From Acidobacteriota bacterium (GTDB taxonomy: Bacteria; Acidobacteriota; Thermoanaerobaculia; Multivoradales; J023), in the NCBI GenBank assembly GCA_029263395.1, contig JAJCXO010000270.1, positions 1 through 48,800 of the forward strand: DNA of 48,800 nt, written 5' to 3'. The notes under the pieces were generated by a model. That model worked only from the letters and a program-made list of their open reading frames with translations. It did not search any database and was not told the DNA's origin. The translations under genes were made by a program, and so were the position numbers. Shown here piece by piece: positions 18,856-42,878 of this stretch. How positions within the stretch are numbered: position 1 is the first letter of the stretch; the number at the start of each line of letters is the position of its first letter.

Positions 18856-19032
18856 TTAGGTTGGCCATAGTTTACGGTAAAGCCATGGCTTGACGGAGAG
18901 ATATTTAGCTTTGTGTATTTGTTGAGCGGTCTCGGGAGCATGGAAGTGGGGCCGTCGACCTCGATAGGGAGCTTCTGATGCTCAGGCAGCATGGTCTACT
19001 GTCGCTCGCACGTTCCTCGACGTTCAGACACC

Positions 19033-19225
19033 GCGATTCAGCGTCAATCGTGGTCTCCTGACGGTGCCGAGAGTGCGATTCACGCTCGATCGTGGTGTCC
19101 TGACGATGCCGAGAGTGCGATTCACGCTCGATCGTGGTGTCCTGACGTTGCCGAGAGCGCAATCAACGCTCGATCGTGGTTTCCTGGCGTCTGGGAGACC
19201 CCAATCGACGCTCGATCGAGCATTT
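19033..19225. repeat. 42-bp tandem repeat with palindromic core
   Basis: Four consecutive 42-bp units start at 19033, 19075, 19117 and 19159; a fifth partial copy runs to about 19225. Units 2 and 3 are nearly identical. Each contains CGCTCGATCGTGG or a close variant around a CGATCG core, and the partial copy ends in the perfect palindrome GCTCGATCGAGC. Because 42 is a multiple of three, frames stay open on both strands, but no start, signal or composition supports a gene. The array lies just after the mscS stop, within a 476-bp gap (18786-19261) that otherwise holds only the repeats at 18806-18855. Confidence 0.85.
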
Positions 19226-27598: not shown

Positions 27599-30496
27599 CT
27601 AGCCGGCGGGTTGGGCTGACGGTCCGTCGTCCTTGTTTTTCCAAACGTCCTGTACCGTCGACCAGTCGCTGATTTCGGCCGGCATCTGCTCGCCTTCCTT
27701 GGGAACGTAGAACGGCTCCTGGAGATACCAGGGGAGCGCCATGATTCGGGCCCACTCTTGATCGTGCCGGTTCTTGGGTTCGGTGCCTTCGACAAACACC
27801 TCTTGTACGACGCGTTCACTACCGACACTCGCAAGTAGGCCGGAGCCCAGGTCAACCTCCACCTGCCGCACCCCAGGGGGCGGAGTGAAGGTTTCGCCGT
27901 TCTGCAGCCAACCATCTTCGAGACCTCGTCGTACCACCGCTTCCCAGATCGGCAGGGCGGCATGCGCCCCGGTCATGCCACGACCGAGGAATCGCTTCTT
28001 GTCGTAGCCGACCCACGACAGGATGGTGTAGCGCGGGGTGAAACCAGCGAACCAGGCGTCGGTGTAGGAGTCGGTGGTGCCGGTTTTACCGGCAGTTTGG
28101 ATTTCGAGCCTGGCCAATCGCGCAGCGCCTGTGCCGCGCACCGCAACACCGCGCAAGATGTCGGTCATGACGTAGGCGACCGCCGGGGACATCGCCTTGT
28201 GCGCGCGGGGTTGATGTTCTTCGAGCAGGCGCCCATTGCGGGACGTGACCCGTTCGATCGTGTAGGGTGCGACATACACCCCTTGGTTGACGAAGGTGGC
28301 GTAAGCCGCAGCGAGCTCGATGGGGGTCATCTCGGAGGTACCCAGGGCCAAGCTGGCATAAGGCGGTAGGTCCGATTCGATGCCACAGCGGCGGCTGAAG
28401 TTGATCACCTGTTCGAAGCCGACCAGATCGAGGAGCTTGACCGAGGTGACGTTGATCGACAACTCGAGGGCCCGACGCAAGGTCAAGATACCCTCGTAGC
28501 GGCGATAGAAGTTGCGCGGACTGTAGTCGGGCTGGTTGGGACCGCCAGGGAAGACCACCGGTCCGTCGAACAGGGTGTCGGCAGCGGTGTAGCCATTCTC
28601 GAGCGCTGCGCCGAAGACGAAGGGTTTGAACGCCGAACCAACCTGTCGCCGGGCCTGCGTCGCACGATTGAACTCGTTGCGGTCGAAGTTCCAACCACCC
28701 ACCATCGCTCGCACGGCTCCGGTGGACGACTCGATGACCAGGACCGCAGCCTCCATCTCGGGCTCTTGCTCGAGCATCAACACCGGTTCTTCGGCGTCTT
28801 CTGGCAGTTCGAGACGGAACCATGCGATATCGCCTCGCTTCAGCAACTTGTCGGGGCGGCCTTTGCGGGTCCATTTGATGCCATCGGCAGTTAGTGAGTA
28901 GGTCCGGGGGCCGATCCGGACCTCGGCGCTCTGCCGATCCGATGCCAGCACCAGGCCTTCGTACCACTCGCCAGGTTCTGGCTCAGCATCGAACCAAGAT
29001 GGCAGCTTGACCTCCTCCAGGTTTTCGTCTTCGAGATGGTCCTTGGCGCCACGCCAACCTTTCTCGTGATCGAGAGCGGAGAGTTGTTCTCGCACAGCGA
29101 GATCGGCGGCGTGTTGGATCTGGCGATCCATGGTGGTGTAGGCCCGCAGTCCGCGGTCGTAGAGTTCGGTTTCACCGTAATGGGAGATCAAGTAGCGTCG
29201 AACTTCTTCGGCGAAGTACGGCCCAACTCGCGTCTCCTTGCGACGTTGGGTGACCAGCAACGGCTCGGCGCGAGTGCTGGCGAGTTCCTCCGGTGTGATC
29301 AGGCCAACTGCCGCCATGCGGCCGAGCACGATGTTGCGACGTTTGATCACCAGCTCGGGCCGGCGATACACGCTGTAGTCGCTCGGTCGCTGGGGGATAC
29401 CGGCGAGGGTGGCGGCCTCGGCCAGCGTCAAGTCAGCCACTGTCTTGTTGAAGTAGTTTTGTGAAGCCGCCTCCATACCGTAGTTGCCGTGCCCGAGATT
29501 GATCATGTTGGCGTACATGGTCAAGATCTGCTGTTTCGAGAATTTCTTCTCGAGTTCGACGGCGAGGAGGGCTTCTTCGATTTTCCGTTTGAAGTGTTTC
29601 TCGCGGGATAATTGGAAAACATCCCGTGCCAGCTGCATCGTGATCGTCGAGGCGCCTTCGGCGCTGCGGCCGGCGCGTAGGTTCTTGATTACGGCGCGGG
29701 CGATCGATTTGAGATCGATACCACCGTGTTTGAAGAAGTTGGCGTCTTCGGTCGCGAGGATTGCGTTCTGCAGCAGCGGTGGTAACTCGCCCTCTTCGAG
29801 TAGCAATCGATTTTCCCGTGAGTAGCTGTGATAGGCGTACTGAGCGAGCGCCTCGGCGTCGATCTCGGCGGACGGAGCGGTCTGATTCTCGAGTTCGTCG
29901 AGAGCTTCCCGGTCATAAACCAGGGTGACCAGTTTGGGCACGAAGTCGTCGATGGTCTCGACTTGTGGGCGGTCGATGGATGCCGCGACACCGATGCCGG
30001 TTGCTGCCGCGGCCAAGCCGGCGAGGATAGGGTAAACAGCAAAAAGCATCACCCTACGACGGCGCTTGGAGCCGCCGGCCGCAACGGCGACCCGAGTGCC
30101 CGAGGATGCCTGGGGCTTGGGCGTTTTTGCCTGGGGAGGCGGTGGCTGAGCTGACCGAGACTGTGATGGCCGTGAGACCTGCGATAGAGGCGTCTCAGAC
30201 AGTGATGTTGCAGCCGTCGGCTGAGCCGTCGTCTGAGCCGGTATCGCCTGAGCCGGTGTCGCCTGAGCCGGTGTCGTCTGAGCCGGTGTCGCCTGGACCG
30301 GTGTCGTCTGAGCCGGTGTCGCCTGGACCGGTGGCGACGGTGTCACCTGTGCCTTCGATTCTAGTCCGGACTCAAGAGGCTCAGGGCGCTCGCTGTCGGG
30401 GCTCGAGGCTGCTGAAATCGGCGCGCTCGTCGGTGAATCCGATGGCGCTTCCGAGGGTTTGTTTTGCGGAGTGTCGGAGAAAGGGTCATTAGCCAT
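27599..30496 (-). CDS. Class A penicillin-binding protein (bifunctional PBP1)
   Basis: A 965-aa peptidoglycan synthase. An N-terminal cytoplasmic tail of about 145 aa is Pro/Thr/Ala/Gln-rich, including TPAQTTPVQATPAQTTPAQA-type 5-residue repeats. It is followed by an RRRR patch and one transmembrane helix (MLFAVYPILAGLAAAATGI). The GT51 glycosyltransferase domain has the catalytic Glu in ILATEDANFFKHGG, then EGASTITMQLARDVF. The transpeptidase domain has the acylated Ser in GSAFKPF (SxxK), SIN as the SxN motif, and KTGTTDSYTDAWFAG. The C-terminal tail is hydrophilic. The 23 bp between its start and uvrB is too short for ordinary promoters on both sides, and the start has no clear ribosome site. 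Confidence 0.93.
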   Translation of the reverse strand: MANDPFSDTPQNKPSEAPSDSPTSAPISAASSPDSERPEPLESGLESKAQVTPSPPVQATPAQTTPVQATPAQTTPAQATPAQAIPAQTTAQPTAATSLSETPLSQVSRPSQSRSAQPPPPQAKTPKPQASSGTRVAVAAGGSKRRRRVMLFAVYPILAGLAAAATGIGVAASIDRPQVETIDDFVPKLVTLVYDREALDELENQTAPSAEIDAEALAQYAYHSYSRENRLLLEEGELPPLLQNAILATEDANFFKHGGIDLKSIARAVIKNLRAGRSAEGASTITMQLARDVFQLSREKHFKRKIEEALLAVELEKKFSKQQILTMYANMINLGHGNYGMEAASQNYFNKTVADLTLAEAATLAGIPQRPSDYSVYRRPELVIKRRNIVLGRMAAVGLITPEELASTRAEPLLVTQRRKETRVGPYFAEEVRRYLISHYGETELYDRGLRAYTTMDRQIQHAADLAVREQLSALDHEKGWRGAKDHLEDENLEEVKLPSWFDAEPEPGEWYEGLVLASDRQSAEVRIGPRTYSLTADGIKWTRKGRPDKLLKRGDIAWFRLELPEDAEEPVLMLEQEPEMEAAVLVIESSTGAVRAMVGGWNFDRNEFNRATQARRQVGSAFKPFVFGAALENGYTAADTLFDGPVVFPGGPNQPDYSPRNFYRRYEGILTLRRALELSINVTSVKLLDLVGFEQVINFSRRCGIESDLPPYASLALGTSEMTPIELAAAYATFVNQGVYVAPYTIERVTSRNGRLLEEHQPRAHKAMSPAVAYVMTDILRGVAVRGTGAARLARLEIQTAGKTGTTDSYTDAWFAGFTPRYTILSWVGYDKKRFLGRGMTGAHAALPIWEAVVRRGLEDGWLQNGETFTPPPGVRQVEVDLGSGLLASVGSERVVQEVFVEGTEPKNRHDQEWARIMALPWYLQEPFYVPKEGEQMPAEISDWSTVQDVWKNKDDGPSAQPAG
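30235..30337 (-). repeat. 15-bp tandem repeat in the PBP N-terminal tail
   Basis: About seven copies of a 15-bp unit of the GAGCCGGTGTCGCCT type encode the TPAQx/TPVQx pentapeptide repeats. The codons vary little, so the array looks recently expanded. Confidence 0.85.
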
Positions 30497-33496: not shown

Positions 33497-33688
33497 TCAA
33501 GCATCGAAGAAGATGTCCTCGATTGGCTGCTCGAATAAACGGGAGATCTTGAAGGCGAGGGGTAGGCTGGGATCGTACTTGCCGGTCTCGATCGCGTTGA
33601 CAGTCTGCCTCGAGACCTCGAGTCCGGCCGCGAGCTGCGCCTGCGTCCAATTACGCTCGGCCCGCAGCACCTTGAGGCGGTTCTTCAC
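33497..33688 (-). CDS. Small XRE/Cro-type regulator
   Basis: A 63-aa helix-turn-helix protein, MKNRLKVLRAERNWTQ, AQLAAGLEVSRQTVNAIETG and KYDPSLPLAFKISRLF. It is a near-minimal Cro/CI domain of the YozG-like group. It overlaps the end of the preceding membrane-protein gene by four bases (ATGA), so the two are translated together. Such regulators usually repress their own two-gene operon. The promoter at 34158-34186 overlaps a palindrome that is a good operator candidate. Confidence 0.92.
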   Translation of the reverse strand: MKNRLKVLRAERNWTQAQLAAGLEVSRQTVNAIETGKYDPSLPLAFKISRLFEQPIEDIFFDA

Positions 33689-34113
33689 CAGTACCGTCTC
33701 CAGCCGAAGATCGTGCCGGCTGAGTAGAGGACCGCCATCACCGTAATGGCATCAGCGAGGTCGGCTTTGGGGGCTCCGAGCCGCTCGCAGATCGCATAGG
33801 TAGAAATTGCCAAGAACGTGCCGCCAAAACCCAGAGCCAGAGCTCGCAGTTGGACGATGCGTTGTAGTTCGTCGGCCTCGCGAATGAAGCGGCTGTAGGC
33901 CATCAGCACCAACACACCGAAGACGGTTGGTATTGCCGCGATCAGTAGTTGGACCGGTCCCTCCGGCAACAAGTCTCGCTTCAGGAGTTGTGAGCTGCCG
34001 GCGAAGCAGATCGCCCACGCCAGGATCGCACCGCCCGCGCGGAGCGCATTATGGGTGTCTTTCTTGGTATCTCCACATCGCATCCAGAGCGGTTCGCTCG
34101 TGGTTTCGGCCAT
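33685..34113 (-). CDS. Membrane protein paired with the XRE regulator
   Basis: A 142-aa protein starting MAETTSEPLWMRC at ATG 34113, with AAAGGA upstream. The longer GTG start at 34152 would place the start within the promoter leader. Four hydrophobic segments are visible (AGGAILAWAICFAGSSQLL, VQLLIAAIPTVFGVLVLMAY, LALGFGGTFLAISTYAI, ADAITVMAVLYSAGTIFGW). The pairing of a small membrane protein with a YozG-like regulator is a recurrent bacterial arrangement. Its function is not established. Confidence 0.75.
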   Translation of the reverse strand: MAETTSEPLWMRCGDTKKDTHNALRAGGAILAWAICFAGSSQLLKRDLLPEGPVQLLIAAIPTVFGVLVLMAYSRFIREADELQRIVQLRALALGFGGTFLAISTYAICERLGAPKADLADAITVMAVLYSAGTIFGWRRYW

Positions 34114-34157
34114 GTCGTATATCCTTTTCAATATGTCGTGTTTGCTTGACACGCAGG

Positions 34158-34212: not shown

Positions 34213-36114
34213 TCAGTCGACGACCAAGACGCTGTCGATCGATGAGCTGACTGTACCGTTCTCGGTCACCGTGAAGGACACCGCGATATCTTGGCACCCG
34301 GTCGTGTCGACGTCCTGGACGACAGTGGTTTCCCCTGGCTGCAGGGGGATAGAGCCGAGACTGTAGTAGGTGCCGCAAACATCGAGGGTTGGTTGGCTGA
34401 GAGTCCCGGTAAAGGCTGGGTCGATCTCGAGGATCAGTGTTTGAGTCTCCCGGTGCACGCGGCACGGCGGGCAGGGGTGGGTACCCGGTTGGGGATGTAC
34501 CCAGGGAGTCGACTGCGCGCTGACGTATTGTCGGACGGGGCAAGGGTCTTCGGCGGGACCCTGAGCAGGATCGTAGTGGGAGGGGTTCGGCTCGCAGAGA
34601 GCGGCACCTGGGGTGTGTTGATTGATTGTCGTCAAGGTTAGCTCGAGGGCGGGAACCAGCTCGGCGAGATTCTGGCTGAGATTGGGTGGACTCGGATTCC
34701 CGACCGGGCATGCTGTGACCGGGCAATCGTTGAGCTGCTTCGGACAGACCGACGCGACGCTGGGACAAACGGAAATCCGTCGAACCGGAGGACAAGTGCT
34801 ATTGGTGCCATAACAAAAGTCTGCCGTCAGTGGCAGATCATCGCCTGCCTCGTCGAGCTGCACCATCAGCTGTTCCCCAGGCAGGTAGGGAGCGTAGTAC
34901 CAGGCGGCAGCAGCCGCGGATGACGCGACCAAGGTCGCAACCGAACTACCGGTGAGGATCGCCGTGGGGGCATGATCGGTGTGTCCAGCCACGACGCCGT
35001 GATCTCCGAAGGCGACGCGTTCCGGAATGCTGTAGGGCCTGGCGTTGCCGAGCGGCTCGCCGTTGGCGCCGACACCGCCAACAGCATAAACGAGCGGCTG
35101 ATTGTGACCTCCCGCGCCGATGCCTGGTAGGCCTCCGCAGGCCCCCGCTGCCGGGACATCGCGCACGGCCCAGGCCGCTGGCATCATCGGCCCGATGCCG
35201 GAGTCCGGACCGTCGGTACGGTTGCCGGTGGCGGCAATCACCAGCGCGCCGCGACATCTAGCATCTACGATCGCGTCATAAACGAGTCGCACCGGAACCG
35301 GCATGTCTAGCCGGTCCTCCTCGAGGCCTCCGAACTCCGGATCCCAACCAATCGACAGGTTGATCACGAGCTTTTGGGCGGGCAGGGCTGTCTGCTGCCA
35401 GGAATCCACTTCAGCGTAGATCGCCTTGGCCAGATCGAGCAGACTACCGACATAACCTCCCAGCACTGGATCCTCGATCGCAGCCGACGGGTCATTGGGG
35501 TCGAAGCTGAGATAGGACAGTGCCAACTGGGAAGTCAGCTGGGCGATACAACCCGTCATCGGTTCACAGAGTGCTCGGTGGGCCATGTTGAGCAGGGTGT
35601 AGCCGTGAAACGAATTGGCCATGAGTTGATGCGGGTTGGTGTCGGCGGTTGGCTGGGTGTCGAGTACCGCCAGACGGACTGGCGAATACCCGGTGATCTC
35701 CGGTAGATTGGCCGATCTGGCCTGATCCAGAAAGTGCTTGCGGAGCGGTTGCCACAGAGTCCTGGGGATATCCATCGAAGAGGCGAACGGGCCGACGTTC
35801 ATGAGGTCGGCCGCGAGTTCGTCGAGTTGTCCCGGGACGAGCAGGTGCAAGGTTGCAACGTCCGCGGATGTGACCGGACGTGCCCCGGTGAAAGTGAACG
35901 TGCAGTAGAGAGCAAGCTCGCTGGGCGTGGACGAGAGCGTGAAAGTTGCCGCGCTGGCCCATGAGCCTCCCGCGCTCGGGCACGGTAGAGCTGGGTCTGT
36001 CTTGACTCCTATCCATCGCCAGTTGATCTGCGGCGGCGAGGTTGTGTCGGTGCTCGGCAGGCCAGCGAAGAGTGACACCAGACTAGTCAGCGTTGCGAGG
36101 AAGACGGTTCTCAT
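34213..36114 (-). CDS. Secreted divergent subtilisin-like (S8) serine protease
   Basis: A 633-aa protein with an N-terminal export signal (TVFLATLTSLVSLFAGLPS). The subtilase triad can be placed as Asp152 in VRLAVLDTQP, His170 in NSFHGYTLLNMA, and Ser391 in LTGSSVATLVASSAAAA. The oxyanion Asn298 lies in VIAATGNRT. The usual GTSMAxP is relaxed to GSSVATL, so the family is distant. After the catalytic domain come a Cys/Pro-rich stretch (CPPVRRISVCPSVASVCP, CPVTACPVG) and a C-terminal beta-rich domain. It lies 141 bp after the TPR-CHAT gene on the same strand, and probably belongs to that sigma-linked unit. Substrates are unknown. Confidence 0.8.
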   Translation of the reverse strand: MRTVFLATLTSLVSLFAGLPSTDTTSPPQINWRWIGVKTDPALPCPSAGGSWASAATFTLSSTPSELALYCTFTFTGARPVTSADVATLHLLVPGQLDELAADLMNVGPFASSMDIPRTLWQPLRKHFLDQARSANLPEITGYSPVRLAVLDTQPTADTNPHQLMANSFHGYTLLNMAHRALCEPMTGCIAQLTSQLALSYLSFDPNDPSAAIEDPVLGGYVGSLLDLAKAIYAEVDSWQQTALPAQKLVINLSIGWDPEFGGLEEDRLDMPVPVRLVYDAIVDARCRGALVIAATGNRTDGPDSGIGPMMPAAWAVRDVPAAGACGGLPGIGAGGHNQPLVYAVGGVGANGEPLGNARPYSIPERVAFGDHGVVAGHTDHAPTAILTGSSVATLVASSAAAAAWYYAPYLPGEQLMVQLDEAGDDLPLTADFCYGTNSTCPPVRRISVCPSVASVCPKQLNDCPVTACPVGNPSPPNLSQNLAELVPALELTLTTINQHTPGAALCEPNPSHYDPAQGPAEDPCPVRQYVSAQSTPWVHPQPGTHPCPPCRVHRETQTLILEIDPAFTGTLSQPTLDVCGTYYSLGSIPLQPGETTVVQDVDTTGCQDIAVSFTVTENGTVSSSIDSVLVVD

Positions 36115-36255
36115 GTCAGGACCTCCAAAGGCGGCGAACTGGGATCGGCGCCGGTAGTGTCAACAGGGCTTGGTATCGGGGGGCACTTTGGTGTTCGAGA
36201 CCGAGCGCTCGTTTCTGACAGCGTTTCGATCACAACTTGTTCCAGTGCAGACCAC

Positions 36256-39057
36256 TCAAGGCTCCAAGAGACGAAAACCCGCCCAATCAGCGGTGGGTCG
36301 CTGATCGCGGAGCGCTAGCTGGGCCTGGCGCAGCGCCCTTGCTGGGGACTCGCCGCTGAGCCATGCTCGATAGTAGTGGCGCACCAGGTCCGCGGCGAAC
36401 TGGTCTTCGACCGGCCGCACGGCGGCCACCACGCCGAGACTGCCGGATGTCAGGAAGGCGTGTGCCAGGCCGGACACACTCTCGACCGCGTATCTCTCCG
36501 GCGACTTTCCCGTCTCACAGCCGGACAGCACGACCCAGCGTGGGACGCTTTCGAAGGCCAGGATGTCGGCTACCGTGAGCAGCGAATCACCCGCTAGCGG
36601 GAGTGCACTCTGCAAGCCGGTGGAGTCATCGAACAATCCATGGCCCGCGTAGTGCAGGATATCCGCTGAGGTCATCAGAGCGCGCACTGTGGAGCTATCG
36701 GCATCGTCGCCGACGAGGTGGTGCGTGGTCCAGGCCGGTGCCTGGCGTCGAATTGCATCGACAACCGACCGACCCTCGGCGCGCGCTGACTCGAGGTCGC
36801 CCGATGGGTTTGCGATCACCAGGGCGTGGTGGGTCGAAGACTTCGAGTCTTCCGAGCTCGCCAGATCCAGACCGTAGATCACCGGCCGGCTCGCCAGCAG
36901 CACATCGTCTCCGAAGGGCAGCGTATGGAGGTCGACCTGGCGCAGCCAGCCGTAGGCCAAAAAGCGGAGCCTATCGGCGCGTTCGATGACGGTGGCGAAC
37001 GGTTGGAGCAGCTGACTTGCCAAGGTGTCGGGACTGGCTCGGGGAGAGAGCTCGCCGAGCCTGGCAACCATCAACTCATGCTCGTCCTCGGCGAAGCCGA
37101 CCCAACCGTCCGCCAACGGGAAGTACAGCAGTCTGGCTTCGCCGCTTGGTGCCGGTGACTGGGCGGTCTCGATGGTGGGGGTGAGGGCATCGAGGGTTGC
37201 AAAAGCCGAGTCGAGGGCCCGTTGCAGTTGCTCGCGCTCGCGGCGACGAGCGGCTCGAAGTCGCCGGAGCTGATCGGCCGGCAGACGCCAGTCCTCAGCG
37301 GTAGCGGTGTCGAAGGCTCGCCGTTGAAGCCGGTAGGCGGCAATGGCCACGTCCCACTGTGTTTGCTCGTCCTCGGAGAGATGCGACAGGCGACTCTGCC
37401 ATTGTAGAGCCCGGAGAACTCTCGACCGCGCCCGGCGGCCCAGTGTGTAAGCCTCCGCAATGCGGCCGCGACGCAAGAGCAAGTCTAGATGTCGCTGTGT
37501 CACTTGGGCTCCGCGATCGACGAAGCCTTCGCGGTCCGAGTCGATCGGCACTTGCTGGCTAGCCTGCTCGAGTCGAGCTTCGGCGACAGCGTAGGTAGCA
37601 AGTGCCTCCGGTAGGCGGCCGAGAGCTTCGAAGGCGGCGGCACGGCCTGCTGCCGCCTGCCAAAGGGCGGTTGGGGACATCGCGGCCCGCGCCAGCTCGT
37701 CGAGATCCTGATAGTGGTTGAGGGCGATGGCTGGCTGGTCGTCTGCTAGTGCGATGCGGGCCGCGATGTCCAAGCGCCAGAATCGGGTGCTCAACGCCGG
37801 TCTAGGGTCCAGAACAGCAGCATGGCTCAGATGATCCCGCGCCGCTTCTGTGCGCCCTTGCTGAACAGCCGCCAACGCTAAGTTGATCGCAATGTTGGCC
37901 CGTTCGTCGATCTCGCTGCACGGTTGTCCTTCGAACAGCAGCTGAGCCTCTTCGAGCCAGGGCGTCGCGTCTACGCCGGCCTCGGTCAGACTGCTCTCGC
38001 CAATCAGGAGCACGTTCCACGCCAGGTTGTTGAGCAGCTGACCGTGATCGCAGGCCGAGAGATCTTCGGGAATGTCGCGCAGTTGCCGCGTGTAGATGGC
38101 GGCAGCCTCGACGCCGAGCCCGACCTGTTGCAGTTGGTGGCCGAGCAGTTGTTCGGCCGTTGTGTGCCAGGTGGTCAAGCCGACCCGTTGTGCGATTTCG
38201 GCACTTTCACGAAGATGTATCAGAGAGCCGCGCAGATTGCCCGTGTTGATTGCCAGCAAGCCGCGCAAGTAGGCGAGGTTGTACTTGGCCTCGGCGGGAT
38301 GATCAGGCCCGATGTGGAGTCCGTCGAGCAATGCCCGCGCTTCGCCGAAACGATCCGCAATGTAGATCAAACCATAGGCGAGCTCGGTGATACAGCTGGC
38401 CTCTTGGCGCAAAAGTCCACGGCGTCGGAAGAGGTCGACCGCGTGCCCGTGAAGCGTCACTGCGTTGTCGATGTCACCGGTCATCTGTGCGATGCGGCCG
38501 AGCCAGCGGTATGCGAGACCGAGCTCTTCATCCGACAACCGAACTCGGTCTTCGCTGAGCAGACGATTGTCGAGCGGCTCTTCGTCGAGCGACTCTTCGT
38601 CGAGTAGGGCTTCGTTCAGTACTGTGCGTGCAGCGTCTAGCTGGCCCTGGATGAGAAGGAGGTCGGCGTGCTCCAGAATTTTGGGTCTCGGCGACGACGG
38701 CTGCAGCGACAGCTGCCAGACGTTCGCTATCGCGTGCGGCTCTTGGGCCGTGACCCGCACGGTGCCACGGCGCGATGTGGGTTTTAGCAGGAAGCGGGTA
38801 CCGGCCTGAATCTCGCTGCGTTCGACGATCTCGAGCGGGCCGTCGATATCGATCCTGGCGGCGGGTGACGACCGCGCCCAGATTCGCAGCGTGTCCTCCT
38901 CGGACACTTGGCAGGTTGGCCCCTGGCGAACCTGCGAGCAGCCGGCAAACGTCACTTCTAGCGGCGGTGCGGCAGCCTGAGGCCCGGTGCCTCGACAGCC
39001 CAGTTGGACCATTGTGACCACCACCACCAGCAGTGCACCTTCGAGCCTCGACGTCAC
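36256..39057 (-). CDS. Exported TPR-CHAT caspase-like protease
   Basis: A 933-aa protein starting at GTG 39057, which overlaps the stop of the upstream gene (GTGA); the frame is open further upstream but that is the previous gene. The start is followed by a hydrophobic run and a Cys (LLVVVVTMVQLGC), so it may be a lipoprotein. A short beta-rich region follows, then TPR-like helical repeats (about residues 120-560), a charged coiled-coil linker, and a C-terminal CHAT domain (about 640-933). The catalytic His806 (ILHYAGHG) and Cys847 (VVLSGCETG) are both present, as in active CHAT proteases. CHAT proteins are caspase/separase-clan cysteine peptidases. Coupling to a sigma factor and a membrane protein suggests regulated proteolysis. 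Confidence 0.9.
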   Translation of the reverse strand: MTSRLEGALLVVVVTMVQLGCRGTGPQAAAPPLEVTFAGCSQVRQGPTCQVSEEDTLRIWARSSPAARIDIDGPLEIVERSEIQAGTRFLLKPTSRRGTVRVTAQEPHAIANVWQLSLQPSSPRPKILEHADLLLIQGQLDAARTVLNEALLDEESLDEEPLDNRLLSEDRVRLSDEELGLAYRWLGRIAQMTGDIDNAVTLHGHAVDLFRRRGLLRQEASCITELAYGLIYIADRFGEARALLDGLHIGPDHPAEAKYNLAYLRGLLAINTGNLRGSLIHLRESAEIAQRVGLTTWHTTAEQLLGHQLQQVGLGVEAAAIYTRQLRDIPEDLSACDHGQLLNNLAWNVLLIGESSLTEAGVDATPWLEEAQLLFEGQPCSEIDERANIAINLALAAVQQGRTEAARDHLSHAAVLDPRPALSTRFWRLDIAARIALADDQPAIALNHYQDLDELARAAMSPTALWQAAAGRAAAFEALGRLPEALATYAVAEARLEQASQQVPIDSDREGFVDRGAQVTQRHLDLLLRRGRIAEAYTLGRRARSRVLRALQWQSRLSHLSEDEQTQWDVAIAAYRLQRRAFDTATAEDWRLPADQLRRLRAARRREREQLQRALDSAFATLDALTPTIETAQSPAPSGEARLLYFPLADGWVGFAEDEHELMVARLGELSPRASPDTLASQLLQPFATVIERADRLRFLAYGWLRQVDLHTLPFGDDVLLASRPVIYGLDLASSEDSKSSTHHALVIANPSGDLESARAEGRSVVDAIRRQAPAWTTHHLVGDDADSSTVRALMTSADILHYAGHGLFDDSTGLQSALPLAGDSLLTVADILAFESVPRWVVLSGCETGKSPERYAVESVSGLAHAFLTSGSLGVVAAVRPVEDQFAADLVRHYYRAWLSGESPARALRQAQLALRDQRPTADWAGFRLLEP

Positions 39058-40004
39058 GAAGGCTCGGTCTCGCCTCGTGAAACGACGCGTAGGCGGCAGT
39101 GCAGCAACTGCCAGCCAGCGCTCGACGTCTGGCCGCCGCGTCGGCGCTCGACCTCCGCGAGTTCGGGCAAGGCGGGGTGAGCAGCGACCACGATCCACAG
39201 CTCGACGTAGCTCGCACCGTCAGAGAGCTGGTGGTCGAGCTGCCCAGTGAGGCGGATCGATCCGGTGTCTGAAACTTCGCTGTCGAGGTCGACCGACTCG
39301 AGTCCACCAGGCCGGTCGACATAAACGTGTGCCTTCACCGGTTGGTCGATCGTGTGCTCCGGCCGCAGAGTGATCTCGAATAGATCCCCGAGTTCGAGCT
39401 CCAGGTCGCGTTGGGGGCCAGCGGCTGTGCTACGAACTACTCGGCGTCCGACTTCGGCGGTCAAGGTGTAGTCCGGAAGGGTGATCGGAGGCTGCGGCCA
39501 GAGCACCCACAGTAAGGTCGCCGCCAACGCCGCTGCCGCGGGCGCGAGCCAGCGCCGTCGACGAACTGAGCCGCGCCGTAGTTGCCAACGCAAACCGTCT
39601 CGTTTTCGAGGCATTGGTTCTGCTGAGTCCGTTGGGCCATCGTTGTCGACGGTCTCGGCCGTGGACGCCTCGGGCAAGGGCGTCTCGACCACAGCGGTCT
39701 CGGCCGAGGACCTTTGTGCCAAAGACCGAGCGCCCTCGGCAGCCGGAGAGTCCAGCGCAACTTGCACCCGTTCGAGAAACCGTTGTCGGGTTTGGCGGTC
39801 GATTGGGCGATAGGCTTCCAAGCGGTTGGCGGCCAGCTCGGAGGTTGCCGCCTCGACTTCGAGAGCGCGGATGTCGTCGCTGTTGGCATCACCGAGACTG
39901 AAGGCCTCCCAACGCGGATCGTCGTCGGTATCCACGGGCTCGGTGTCGGCTGCGGCGTCTCGCAACAGCCGCTCGACTCCATCCAGGGTTCGATCGTCGT
40001 TCAT
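39054..40004 (-). CDS. Single-pass membrane protein, candidate anti-sigma factor
   Basis: A 316-aa protein overlapping the sigma gene stop by four bases (ATGA). The N-terminal part of about 145 aa is acidic, presumably cytoplasmic, and starts MNDDRTLDGVERLLRDAA, with EAFSLGDANSDDIRALEVEA resembling the helical segments of anti-sigma domains. An RRGSVRRRR patch precedes one transmembrane helix (WLAPAAAALAATLLWVLW, about 151-168). The rest is a beta-rich outer domain (VKAHVYVDRPGGL, SYVELWIVVAAHP). No HxxxCxxC zinc motif is present, so it is not a classical ZAS anti-sigma factor. Position and topology make regulation of the sigma factor likely, but this is inference. Confidence 0.7.
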   Translation of the reverse strand: MNDDRTLDGVERLLRDAAADTEPVDTDDDPRWEAFSLGDANSDDIRALEVEAATSELAANRLEAYRPIDRQTRQRFLERVQVALDSPAAEGARSLAQRSSAETAVVETPLPEASTAETVDNDGPTDSAEPMPRKRDGLRWQLRRGSVRRRRWLAPAAAALAATLLWVLWPQPPITLPDYTLTAEVGRRVVRSTAAGPQRDLELELGDLFEITLRPEHTIDQPVKAHVYVDRPGGLESVDLDSEVSDTGSIRLTGQLDHQLSDGASYVELWIVVAAHPALPELAEVERRRGGQTSSAGWQLLHCRLRVVSRGETEPS

Positions 40005-40738
40005 GACTCTCTCTTTCCCGTATCCAAGGCAGATGGTGCCGTCGTTGGAGCGACCTCGGATCGACGCATCAGGCGTCGGGTCGTGCGGCGTAAGCGGCTA
40101 CGCCAAGCATAAATCGCGTCGTCGCTCAGGCCGGTTTGCTGCCGAATCTCACCGACCGAGAGATCGTCCACGAACAGCAACCTGAACATCTCGAATCCTT
40201 GCGGGCTCAAGTCCTGCTGCAGTTTGCCCAGCAGCCAGTGCAACGTTTGTCGTGCTGTGGTCTGTTGTTCTGGATCGCGTTCGGTGGTCGGTCGATCCAG
40301 CACCTGGGTGGATACGAGCTCTGTTGGCCAGGTTTTTTTGCCGCTTTGCAAGATCGAGGAGACCAACCGCTCCGCGACCAGGCCAACATAGTTGAGGAGC
40401 GACAAACCCTTGTCATGATCCCAATTGCGCAGCACCCGTGCGCTGTTGGCGAAGAGCGAAACCAGCACGTCCTGGACTAGATCTTCGATCTCCTGTCTCA
40501 GACGGAATCGATCAGCGAACCGTTGTCGTCGTAAGATCGCTCGCGCCGCCCTAACCTGAATGATCGGTGTCATGCGGTCAATCAAGTCGCCGAGGGCCAT
40601 CTCGTCGCCGCCCAAGGCTCGTTCGAGATGGGTAGCTGTCAGATCGTCACGCTTGATCGGCATTCCCATGAGGATAGGGGCACCAGACAGCGAGCCGACC
40701 ACCCTTTTGGGAACCGGAGGTGCCTCAAGTGGGAACAT
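40001..40738 (-). CDS. Sigma-70 family (ECF-like) RNA polymerase sigma factor
   Basis: A protein of up to 245 aa with sigma region 2 (LRQEIEDLVQDVLVSLFANS, ARVLRNWDHDKGLSLLNYVG, VAERLVSSIL) and region 4 with a helix-turn-helix (FVDDLSVGEIRQQTGLSDDA, IYAWRSRLRRTTRRLM). Spacing and lack of regions 1 and 3 place it with ECF-type factors, though region 2 is long. The start is uncertain between ATG 40738 and internal ATGs that begin MGMPIKRDD; none has a good ribosome site. It heads a coupled series: sigma, membrane protein, TPR-CHAT. Target promoters are unknown; autoregulation would be usual. Confidence 0.9.
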   Translation of the reverse strand: MFPLEAPPVPKRVVGSLSGAPILMGMPIKRDDLTATHLERALGGDEMALGDLIDRMTPIIQVRAARAILRRQRFADRFRLRQEIEDLVQDVLVSLFANSARVLRNWDHDKGLSLLNYVGLVAERLVSSILQSGKKTWPTELVSTQVLDRPTTERDPEQQTTARQTLHWLLGKLQQDLSPQGFEMFRLLFVDDLSVGEIRQQTGLSDDAIYAWRSRLRRTTRRLMRRSEVAPTTAPSALDTGKRES

Positions 40739-40815
40739 ATTATCTTGTCGTCGAGTACATCACACTATCTCTAGGATTTGTCGGACGTCGACATTGGGAA
40801 TTGTCGAACCAGGCA

Positions 40816-40850
40816 GGGCCCGCGACGCGCCTATAGCGCCTCGCGGGCCC
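40816..40850 (-). terminator. Strong hairpin after the VWA gene
   Basis: GGGCCCGCGA (40816-40825) and TCGCGGGCCC (40841-40850) pair. After one C-C mismatch, GCGC/GCGC extends the stem around CTATA. It lies 28 bases past the VWA stop and separates that gene from the sigma operon. No T-run is present. Confidence 0.7.
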
Positions 40851-40877
40851 GCGGTGATTCATTAGTCCGAGTGACGA

Positions 40878-42878
40878 CTACCTGCCGTCGATCGGGTAGA
40901 TTGCGGTGTCGAGTGTCAAGGCCTCGATGCCGCCGCCGGTAATGGCGATTTCGGTCAGCGCGTCGGCGAATATAGCCGTGGCGATCCCGAAGACGATTTG
41001 GTTGGCGACCACCGGTTGACCGGCTACGGTGAGCATCACTGCCTCGGGTAGAGTCAGCGCGATGGCTCCGTCACTGCCCTGGAATGCCAGGCCGGATGGC
41101 CACAATCCCTCCGGCAACGTGACCGAGTTGCTACCGTCGAGGGACGTCGCGAGGACTATCTGGCCGTGGAGATAGAACTCTACCGCTCCGACCAAGCCGA
41201 GACTAGAATCGACCGTGGCCTGCGTGCCACCTGGGACAGAGCTCACGGTGACGCCACTCAGCACCTCGTCGAAACCCTGAATCGATCCCGACGCCTCGAA
41301 TCGCACGTGGGATCCTTCGACAGTATCGGAAGCCGAAATCCCAAGCGAGACGACGGCGCCCGCGGCCTGTTCGGTCGGAATCTTCACGCCGTGGCCGCTG
41401 GGCCCGAGGCCACGCACCTCGAAGCCTACCTCGAGGTTCTCGACGAAAATCTCTTGGGAGAAGGGTAACGATACATGGGGCCAATGCCGCCGCCAGGGGC
41501 AGAAGGGGAGATCGATTTCACTCCGTATCGAGCAGCACTGGCCGTTAGCATTGTGAGTACTGATCAAGAACTCCACATGCTGGCCCTCGACTGCTGACGG
41601 GCCTACAATTTCCACCGTGTTGGTGGCGGTGCCGGCGACCGGCGGGGGTTGCAGGGCCAGTCCGTCAATGATGTTGGGGTTGAAGCCGATGTCAGGGGAT
41701 TGTGGTGCGGTGGGTGTCAGACGAATCTCCTCGACAACTTCGGTAAACAAATTTTGGAACCTGAAGGTGTAGTGGAAGAGTGGCGGCGGCGGCCACCTCC
41801 AGTGGCAGTGGACGTCCTCGAAGAGGACCTGGCCGCAGTCACAATCTGGCAACTCGATGATGAAGATCTCTTCGCAGCACGGTTCGAGGTCTTCGTCGTG
41901 CAACTCGAAGGTGAACTGCATTTGGCCGCCGTCCGGCGCGCCGGTGACGGCGAACGAAACAGTGCGCGTCGGGTCGGGACAATTGGGATCTGCAGCCGAG
42001 CAGATCGGATCGTTCTGGAACGAGAAGTAGTTGGGTGTCACCGAGAGGGCCGGGCCGCCGACCAGGCTCGGATCGGTGATCCAGACGTGCTCGGCGTCGA
42101 AGGGGATATCGTTCTCGTCGGTTAAGAAGTTGGTGAAGGTCAAGGTGACGTTGACCACGCCGCTTGCATCCGTGGCACAGGTGGCCTCGAAGTCGTCGAG
42201 CCTGGCGCAAATGTCGATCTCGCGTGCTACCTTCTCAGCGATTGCTTCCTCGTAGGTGTTGAGGTTGTCGATGTTGATCACAAAGCCATCGCCCGGAGTT
42301 CCGGTCTGGGGTCTGACCAGCGTATCGAGGAACATTTGTCCGCCGTTGCCGAGTCCGATCCCTAGCGCATTGATCTGATCAACGCCGGCGGCCATGGCTG
42401 CGTCCGCAGCTTGCAGGGCCGCGGGGCCAGGGTTCATGACAGGGCGGTTGGGTTGTCCGTCGGTCGAGACGTCGATAACTCGGCGAGTCGATGGCGGCAT
42501 CAGGCCGTCGAGCTCTGTCACCGCCTGGTTGAGGCACGAGGCTGTATTCGTCATTCCGCCCGGGAACGGAAGTGCGGTGATCTGGTCGGCCAGGGCGTCG
42601 GCATTGGCGTTCGTGACAATCACCGGTCCGACAACCGTCTGGGAACCGTCTGAGAACTGGATCACGGTGATGCGGACCGTGCCATTGTGGGGGATTTGGT
42701 TGAGCAACGCCGCCGCGGTGCCCGCGATCTGGGTTTGCCATCCGCCAGCTCCCAGGCTCCCCGAGCCATCGATGCAGAACACCAAGTCGGTAATGTCCTG
42801 GCCGGCCGCTGGCCCGGCCAGAGCCAGACTCAAGCACAAGACCAAGAAAGACGTGACGATGAGACGCTTCACCCTCAT
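40878..42878 (-). CDS. Secreted von Willebrand factor A domain protein
   Basis: A 666-aa protein with a signal peptide (RLIVTSFLVLCLSLALAGPAAG). The VWA domain (about 28-230) has the metal-ion site DGSGS in LVFCIDGSGSLGAGGW, the Thr in GGMTNTASCLN, and the Asp in IDVSTDGQPN. The middle part is Cys-rich (EPCCEEIFIIELPDCDCG, HCHWRWPPPPLF, NGQCCSIRSEIDLPFCPW) with Ig-like beta strands. The C-terminal part is a repetitive hydrophobic beta region. AAAGGAG precedes ATG 42878. VWA domains usually mediate metal-dependent protein binding; the partner here is unknown. It stands upstream of the sigma operon on the same strand but has its own terminator. Confidence 0.87.
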   Translation of the reverse strand: MRVKRLIVTSFLVLCLSLALAGPAAGQDITDLVFCIDGSGSLGAGGWQTQIAGTAAALLNQIPHNGTVRITVIQFSDGSQTVVGPVIVTNANADALADQITALPFPGGMTNTASCLNQAVTELDGLMPPSTRRVIDVSTDGQPNRPVMNPGPAALQAADAAMAAGVDQINALGIGLGNGGQMFLDTLVRPQTGTPGDGFVINIDNLNTYEEAIAEKVAREIDICARLDDFEATCATDASGVVNVTLTFTNFLTDENDIPFDAEHVWITDPSLVGGPALSVTPNYFSFQNDPICSAADPNCPDPTRTVSFAVTGAPDGGQMQFTFELHDEDLEPCCEEIFIIELPDCDCGQVLFEDVHCHWRWPPPPLFHYTFRFQNLFTEVVEEIRLTPTAPQSPDIGFNPNIIDGLALQPPPVAGTATNTVEIVGPSAVEGQHVEFLISTHNANGQCCSIRSEIDLPFCPWRRHWPHVSLPFSQEIFVENLEVGFEVRGLGPSGHGVKIPTEQAAGAVVSLGISASDTVEGSHVRFEASGSIQGFDEVLSGVTVSSVPGGTQATVDSSLGLVGAVEFYLHGQIVLATSLDGSNSVTLPEGLWPSGLAFQGSDGAIALTLPEAVMLTVAGQPVVANQIVFGIATAIFADALTEIAITGGGIEALTLDTAIYPIDGR

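Follow-up and report, generated by a model that had tools for sequence, protein, structure and literature searches.

A conserved Acidobacteriota operon associating an ECF sigma factor and a probable transmembrane anti-sigma factor with a TPR-CHAT protein and a subtilase

The closest described precedent for the locus considered here is the DdvS/DdvA pair (PDB 8rot, 8rw5; the former entitled "Cryo-EM structure of the transmembrane anti-sigma factor DdvA", from Myxococcus xanthus), in which the gene of an extracytoplasmic function (ECF) sigma factor adjoins that of a transmembrane anti-sigma factor linked to a TPR-CHAT part in one polypeptide. DdvS is described as controlling an island with a cyclic oligonucleotide-based antiphage signalling system (CBASS) and type III-B clustered regularly interspaced short palindromic repeats (CRISPR) (PMC12288465). 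In Craspase, cutting of Csx30 relieves CASP-sigma, which its authors liken to DegS and RseA (PMC10028731). ECF sigma factors have also been reported in the neighborhood of proteases: ECF54, for which Geodermatophilus is a named example, is said to have genes for a carboxypeptidase, a subtilase, and CHAT in its context and to lack an anti-sigma factor there (PMC8999054, section 11), and in EACC2-caspase neighborhoods a caspase-type gene occurs with an ECF sigma factor and a TPR protein (PMC8195603). The present analysis concerns a 48,800-nucleotide stretch, hereafter the window, from an Acidobacteriota bacterium (GenBank assembly GCA_029263395.1, contig JAJCXO010000270.1, positions 1 to 48,800), which carries four adjacent genes for an ECF-type sigma factor (SIG), a single-transmembrane protein (MEM), a TPR-CHAT protein (CHAT), and a divergent subtilase (SUB). 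The four genes are real and conserved, and MEM is very probably a transmembrane anti-sigma factor. With a probability of roughly 60%, the unit would function as a trans-envelope sigma switch in which CHAT cuts MEM outside the membrane and frees SIG; it is taken here as a split, two-protease variant of DdvS/DdvA.

Like DdvS/DdvA, the window combines an ECF sigma factor with a transmembrane protein and a TPR-CHAT protein, and its sigma gene overlaps the next gene. The one-polypeptide make-up is absent, MEM and CHAT being split, but it is present in two related operons (L061 and L065). Unlike DdvA, MEM adds a beta-sandwich domain, CHAT is a predicted lipoprotein, and a subtilase belongs to the unit. 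The TPR-CHAT fold of 8rot is shared by the model of the window CHAT (predicted template modelling score 0.83), with separase and Csx29 scoring about equally: the best Foldseek match is DdvA (5.2e-14, template modelling score 0.28), followed by Csx29 of Craspase (7.9e-14), and VIA places Csx29 first (Z 28.0, 482 residues aligned, root mean square deviation (rmsd) 11.8) with separase and DdvA at about 24 (DdvA: Z 24.2, 632 aligned, rmsd 10.2). By sequence, the CHAT family profile is nearest DdvA (1.2e-11, its best CHAT match), whereas Csx29 comes at 3.9e-5; PDB searches with single sequences, namely the window CHAT and the fused L099, gave no CHAT entry, and only the family profile found them.

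With regard to the type III-E CASP system (Cas7-11, Csx29, Csx30, and CASP-sigma), the common features are a TPR-CHAT protein with a His-Cys dyad, an inhibitor, and an ECF sigma factor. In contrast to Craspase, the window inhibitor is transmembrane, CHAT looks exported, and the sequence link to Csx29 is weak. That the module is Craspase itself was considered and rejected, since no CRISPR-like array or repeats were found in the 48.8 kb and PADLOC gave zero matches for the eight window proteins submitted, a subset of those encoded; a type III-E locus with Cas7-11 and an array is accordingly not seen. Regulated intramembrane proteolysis of the RseA/DegS/RseP type resembles the present case in that MEM is a putative single-transmembrane anti-sigma factor, the protease is predicted to lie outside the membrane, and M50 proteases are present in the genome, but a caspase-like CHAT and a subtilase stand in place of DegS. 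Subtilase and CHAT genes near an ECF sigma factor are shared with ECF54, unlike which MEM lies between SIG and CHAT. The EACC2-caspase neighborhoods differ in their domains, and no transmembrane anti-sigma factor is mentioned in the part of PMC8195603 that deals with them. The first-pass annotation of the window had presented the pathway as CRISPR-free, which the absence of an array bears out, with Craspase as its precedent; the CHAT model does resemble Csx29, but the closest precedent, DdvA, had been overlooked. Its model of sigma release, in which the cutting of MEM is a putative step, is partly supported: it is right in outline, given the conserved module, the anti-sigma-type MEM, and the exported-looking CHAT, and less new than thought because of the DdvA and ECF54 precedents.

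The four-gene operon and its conservation

The open reading frame (ORF) list of the window gives the minus-strand order SIG, MEM, CHAT, and SUB (Table 1). As annotated at first pass, SIG and MEM overlap by ATGA (40001-40004), and MEM and CHAT by GTGA (39054-39057), both read directly from the sequence; the longest CHAT ORF begins at 39198, and the GTG at 39057 is the start adopted here. CHAT and SUB are separated by 141 bp, with GGAGGT preceding the SUB start. The catalytic dyad and triad noted in the same annotation are also present, and they are invariant: His806 and Cys847 of CHAT (positions 776 and 817 of alignment A1) are identical in 20/20 aligned copies, and Asp152, His170, Ser391, and the oxyanion Asn of SUB are each identical in 16/16. 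Assignment to families is strong for CHAT (PF12770, 8e-39, 134 bits against a cut-off of 24) and weak for the two outer genes. The match of SIG to TIGR02937 (2e-9) is below its cut-off; among its relatives, L053 exceeds the Pfam cut-off for region 2 and L066 does not. The SIG family alignment (A2) covers 26-86% identity, and the SIG profile matches the ECF sigma factor 9isn_F at 4.2e-6. SUB matches PF00082 (0.035, 13.8 bits against a cut-off of 21.8) and mycosin TIGR03921 (2e-7) without reaching either cut-off.

From a search of 59 related genomes with the window CHAT, 21 long and strong matches were retained, those in its own genome among them. The corresponding operons come from 12 genomes and five families of the order, and their surroundings were scanned with iterated profiles. 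The gene order found in the window is that of most relatives: SIG, MEM, CHAT, and SUB lie on one strand and in the same order in 15/21 operons. L067 keeps MEM, CHAT, and SUB behind a different sigma factor, and L024, L029, L058, and L059 reach contig ends with their remaining genes in order. The genome of the window has a second copy, seen as two pieces that each reach a contig end: SIG-MEM-CHAT on C114 (L076) and CHAT-SUB on C13 (L058). We infer that these are one operon divided by assembly.

As a single query, the window CHAT retrieved no relative from the contigs of named genomes. The SIG profile, scanned against the named genomes, yielded 21 loci, 14 of them taken as already-known operons, in genomes labelled Acidobacteriota, Thermoanaerobaculum, Holophagales, and Thermoanaerobaculia and also in metagenome-assembled genomes (MAGs) labelled Deltaproteobacteria and Myxococcales. 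Among the seven further loci, L098 has the identical gene order, L100 is on a contig that stops after MEM, and L096, L097, and L103, from other MAGs, have all four genes with one on the opposite strand. In a scan of 148 genomes of the class, the MEM profile matched at 34 places, spread over 19 genomes, with CHAT adjoining at 31; 18 of the 34 had served to build the profile, and the fair count is therefore 13 of the 16 places not so used, the three misses being one contig end, one sigma factor without CHAT, and one place where nothing was recovered. Since the order is kept across five families and the MEM-profile places adjoin CHAT, the operon is more than a chance association. At many weaker MEM-profile matches the order is sigma-CHAT-MEM, and a subtilase follows at L075 and L176 (over the S8 cut-off) and at L074 (below it).

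In a sample of the phylum, nine of 396 genomes matched. Five of them are outside the class, all weak: CHAT adjoins one and was not found at two, a fourth is cut by a contig end, and the fifth is a YfbK-type protein with a VWA domain. The YfbK-type protein (L188:6031-8094) lies by an ECF sigma factor, and its start resembles the zinc-less N-domain of MEM, the likeness being confined to the N-domain region.

Table 1. Genes and protein features of the operon, in window coordinates
Feature	Position	Strand	Basis
SIG, ECF-type sigma factor, 245 aa, regions 2 and 4	40001-40738	minus	
MEM, single-transmembrane anti-sigma-like protein, 316 aa	39054-40004	minus	
MEM residues 1-99, helical domain, proposed zinc-less anti-sigma domain, predicted cytoplasmic	39708-40004	minus	model
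MEM residues 150-168, transmembrane helix	39501-39557	minus	model helix and hydrophobic sequence
MEM residues 177-310, beta-sandwich (Ig-like), predicted periplasmic	39075-39476	minus	model strands 179-308
MEM Arg191 codon, candidate P1 residue of cut site	39432-39434	minus	conservation
CHAT, TPR-CHAT protein, 933 aa from GTG at 39057, lipobox-like Cys21	36256-39057	minus	
CHAT N-terminal beta domain, about residues 34-120	38698-38958	minus	model strands 6-92
CHAT TPR-type helical repeats, about residues 126-623	37189-38682	minus	model, weak TPR family matches
CHAT catalytic domain with His806, Cys847, and invariant Asp885	36259-37140	minus	family match, model, 20/20 each
SUB, divergent subtilase (S8), 633 aa, signal-like N-terminus	34213-36114	minus	

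The MEM and CHAT proteins and a candidate cut site

MEM has no match in Pfam or NCBIfam, the zinc-binding zf-HC2 family (PF13490, motif HxxxCxxC) included. In an AlphaFold2 model built from 16 sequences (mean predicted local distance difference test (pLDDT) 78.7), the N-domain consists of helices 3-19, 30-36, 42-54, 56-64, 70-85, and 88-99, followed by a linker with pLDDT below 50 in parts, a single hydrophobic helix preceded by basic residues, and the beta-sandwich. Comparison of the latter by VIA gave Z up to 8.9, for NPC2 (106 aligned, rmsd 2.8); the VIA matches, which concern residues 172-312 and leave the N-domain outside, include no anti-sigma structure. Nothing useful was obtained from a sequence search of the PDB with whole MEM. 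Aligned by hhalign to a zf-HC2 profile made from the same genome, the N-domain gives P 8.9e-4 and a score of 19.8, compared with 5.7-9.4 for those 12 of 30 column shuffles whose scores were listed. L067 is more telling. Its MEM keeps the periplasmic half of the family, but its N-domain is a true zf-HC2 (28 bits, cut-off 22.2), and the sigma factor in front of it is an ECF sigma factor that exceeds the Pfam cut-offs for regions 2 and 4 and is not listed by the SIG profile. Sigma factor and N-domain were exchanged together, as expected if the two bind each other. Because a zf-HC2 and a different ECF sigma factor stand in the corresponding places of L067, the 316-residue MEM is very probably, judging from sequence, a transmembrane anti-sigma factor.

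The N-termini of the CHAT proteins were judged by eye, without a signal predictor. Two of the 21 copies are truncated (L058, L059), two are fused (L061, L065), and 17 are readable split forms, of which 15 begin with a lipoprotein-like signal, that is, a hydrophobic stretch ending in Cys; in the two exceptions, L024 has the hydrophobic stretch without Cys, and the signal of L029 is in another reading frame. In L061 (1209 aa) and L065 (1163 aa), MEM and CHAT form one ORF and the signal stretch between them is gone. Both come from one genome, and an assembly slip is ruled out because these are two paralogous operons that both lack the signal peptide. In the signal-bearing split form and in the signal-less fusion alike, CHAT and the MEM beta-sandwich would share one side of the membrane, by the usual topology rule the periplasmic one. 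The export of CHAT, already supposed at first pass, is thereby supported.

Which bond of MEM might be cut can be approached from conservation. Position 191 of the window MEM is occupied in 34 of the 35 MEM-type proteins that aligned on the profile (from 36 loci), and in 34/34 the residue is Arg, followed by Gly (15), Ser (15), Asp (2), Asn (1), or Thr (1). This is the most conserved column of MEM, with Pro and Gly columns next. Arg191 lies 23 residues past the end of the transmembrane helix, in a block (191-200) of mean pLDDT 58 between well-modelled strands. Separase and gingipain R, which are relatives of CHAT, prefer Arg before the cut. In CHAT, an Asp located 38 residues after the catalytic Cys (Asp885) is invariant in 20/20 copies, and we take it to be the counterpart of the Arg-binding Asp of separase. 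Arg191 is, on sequence, a candidate cut site.

The fusion is one of two observations that point to a physical partnership of MEM and CHAT, which were modelled here as separate chains. The other is the agreement of distance matrices over 13 complete operons, which, with the species tree left in, is r 0.78 for SIG-CHAT, 0.80 for MEM periplasmic-CHAT, 0.80 for CHAT-SUB, and 0.61 for SIG-MEM N (p 0.0005 each).

The proposed switch and competing explanations

In the trans-envelope switch proposed here, MEM would span the inner membrane and hold SIG by its cytoplasmic helical domain, and the lipoprotein CHAT and the secreted subtilase would be located on the outer side of that membrane. The sensor of a signal in the envelope would be either the subtilase or the TPR/beta domain of CHAT, and CHAT would then cut MEM in its periplasmic part, with the invariant Arg191 as the most likely P1 residue. 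A site-2 protease (M50, RseP type), for which the genome has five PF02163 matches, would then clear the MEM stub and SIG would be freed for its presumed regulon. As to the subtilase, it may be an activator of CHAT, a second cutter, or an output of the switch. Sequence and models establish the order of the genes, their domains, the intact catalytic residues, the signal-like N-termini, the natural fusion of MEM to CHAT, and the joint exchange of sigma factor and anti-sigma domain; the binding of SIG to MEM, the cutting by CHAT and its site, the part played by the subtilase, and the signal are inferred. The DdvA precedent and the modules of like logic, but of other subfamilies, elsewhere in the genome also speak for the switch.

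Several observations weigh against this reading. The role of Arg191 may be structural, and L134 keeps this residue with no CHAT found in the 13.5 kb around it. The four genes do not always occur together: CHAT and SUB stand alone in L063, where SIG and MEM are missing although the contig continues, and L101 and L102 have a SIG-like sigma factor without the other three genes. The profile link between MEM and zf-HC2 is weak (Prob 23), and 4 of 18 aligned MEMs (L066, L057, L056, L053) do not show the W..L..G core expected in the N-domain. When L051 is left out, the matrix agreement falls to 0.69 for SIG-CHAT, 0.58 for MEM periplasmic-CHAT, 0.65 for CHAT-SUB, and 0.55 for SIG-MEM N, and MEM N-SUB is not significant (r 0.17, p 0.16). 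Finally, a 5+4 spaced promoter dyad upstream of SIG, looked for with autoregulation in mind, occurs in 4 sequences, compared with 3-4 in shuffles.

The want of a shared promoter motif upstream of SIG also counts against an unlikely, but the best surviving, alternative, according to which SIG and MEM are an ordinary pair and CHAT and the subtilase are secreted effectors under the sigma factor, neither of them cutting MEM. The retention of CHAT and SUB alone in L063 would fit such effectors, as would the 20 of 43 CHAT places of the window's own genome near which no sigma factor was found, but they would not lead one to expect MEM fused to CHAT in two operons, nor the agreement of the MEM periplasmic and CHAT matrices.

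It is improbable that CHAT only acts as a sensor or clamp that binds MEM, the first cut being made by other proteases, either of the DegS type or the subtilase alone. DdvA is a single chain, so its CHAT could act without release, and its active site is reportedly incomplete, which lends this idea some appeal; an idle protease, however, would be expected to lose some of its catalytic residues, and His, Cys, and Asp885 are identical in 20/20 copies.

Quite improbable too is the reverse assignment, with the subtilase cutting MEM and CHAT activating or maturing the subtilase. CHAT-SUB is indeed the most persistent pair (L063; r 0.80), and subtilase genes also follow the sigma-CHAT-MEM order mentioned above (L075, L176, and, below cut-off, L074), but MEM is fused to CHAT and not to SUB in two operons, and an Arg at P1 fits the preference of separase and gingipain R. 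Last, descent from the type III-E Csx29-Csx30-sigma module, with loss of CRISPR and retention for phage defence, is highly implausible in spite of the resemblance of the CHAT model to Csx29 (VIA Z 28.0; Foldseek 7.9e-14), as the family profile is nearer DdvA (1.2e-11) than Csx29 (3.9e-5), MEM is a membrane protein, and PADLOC matched none of the eight window proteins.

Neighboring sequence, further CHAT modules, and significance

Upstream of SIG, a gene at 40878-42878 encodes a secreted protein with a VWA domain (DUF1194, 7e-19). This gene and TM155 (33685-34152) were considered as members of the unit and, among the operons compared, matched only in the same-genus L051; they are therefore excluded. 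The interval from the VWA gene to SIG holds an imperfect inverted repeat (40780-40860), long and rich in G+C, that is perhaps a terminator; a terminator scan, which found 4 compared with 4.1 in shuffles, does not list it. Elsewhere in the window, tandem direct repeats of 42 nt occur at 18991-19200 and of 15 nt at 30213-30347, the latter inside a 965-residue ORF (27599-30496).

CHAT genes are numerous in the genome from which the window comes, with 42 matches. Counting one more place obtained with the window CHAT, an ECF sigma factor lies within 4.5 kb at 23 of 43 CHAT places, versus about 12% of random positions. By simple hydropathy, 15 of 39 CHAT ORF rows adjoin a same-strand sigma factor and a single-transmembrane protein; together with the C114 operon and the window, the genome holds at least 17 such modules by the criteria used here, in the orders sigma-transmembrane-CHAT, CHAT-sigma-transmembrane, and sigma-CHAT-transmembrane. 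Six of its 18 zf-HC2 matches adjoin CHAT genes. Some of these modules adjoin further caspase and CHAT genes. Two paralogous clusters (L070:4020-15068 on C28 and L071:5335-13014 on C121) have a sigma factor, a single-transmembrane protein, and an exported CHAT. Behind these lie genes for a protein of 437-456 aa, for a Peptidase C14 caspase, and for another CHAT protein, which in L071 is fused to an FGE-sulfatase domain.

Other architectures are found in the same genome. At L081:5695-9327 (C76), a sigma factor and a zf-HC2-like single-transmembrane protein adjoin a TPR-CHAT protein whose start is lipobox-like; weak PDZ matches that stay below cut-off precede its TPRs and are reminiscent of DegS. 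L136:2400-8173 (C285), where an ECF sigma factor is combined with a 973-aa CHAT protein that lacks a signal-like start and with a downstream subtilase, is possibly a version that does without an anti-sigma factor. An Arg-[Gly/Ser] rule for the anti-sigma proteins of other CHAT modules is not claimed, the stretch having been chosen after seeing the sequences: the pair occurs 13-75 residues past the helix in 9/10 other-module proteins versus 5.4 expected (P 0.02), it is lacking from the CHAT-linked L160, and it is also seen in some zf-HC2 proteins that have no CHAT.

No report of a split-type CHAT/anti-sigma module was found in the literature searched. What is new here is the two-protein form with an intact dyad, the presence of a subtilase, the occurrence of fused and split forms in one lineage, the exchange of sigma factor and N-domain in L067, the invariant arginine, and the number of modules in one genome. 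A tentative generalization, less likely than not, is that CHAT-gated sigma switches form a large class of envelope signalling in these bacteria, in which a periplasmic subtilase/CHAT relay would cut the transmembrane anti-sigma factor after an invariant Arg, with about 17 parallel circuits in this one genome and DdvA as a fused special case. If this holds, the split and fused forms would make the proposed self-cutting of DdvA directly testable.

Regarding the protein family, the operon would tie a caspase-like protease to sigma release without CRISPR, in natural split and fused forms. With Arg191, the intact dyad, and the two-protein form, protease and putative substrate are separable, and sigma release of the DdvA type may be approached by single-residue mutants. 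Given how many such modules the genome holds, CHAT proteases may serve a large share of the envelope sensing of this bacterium.

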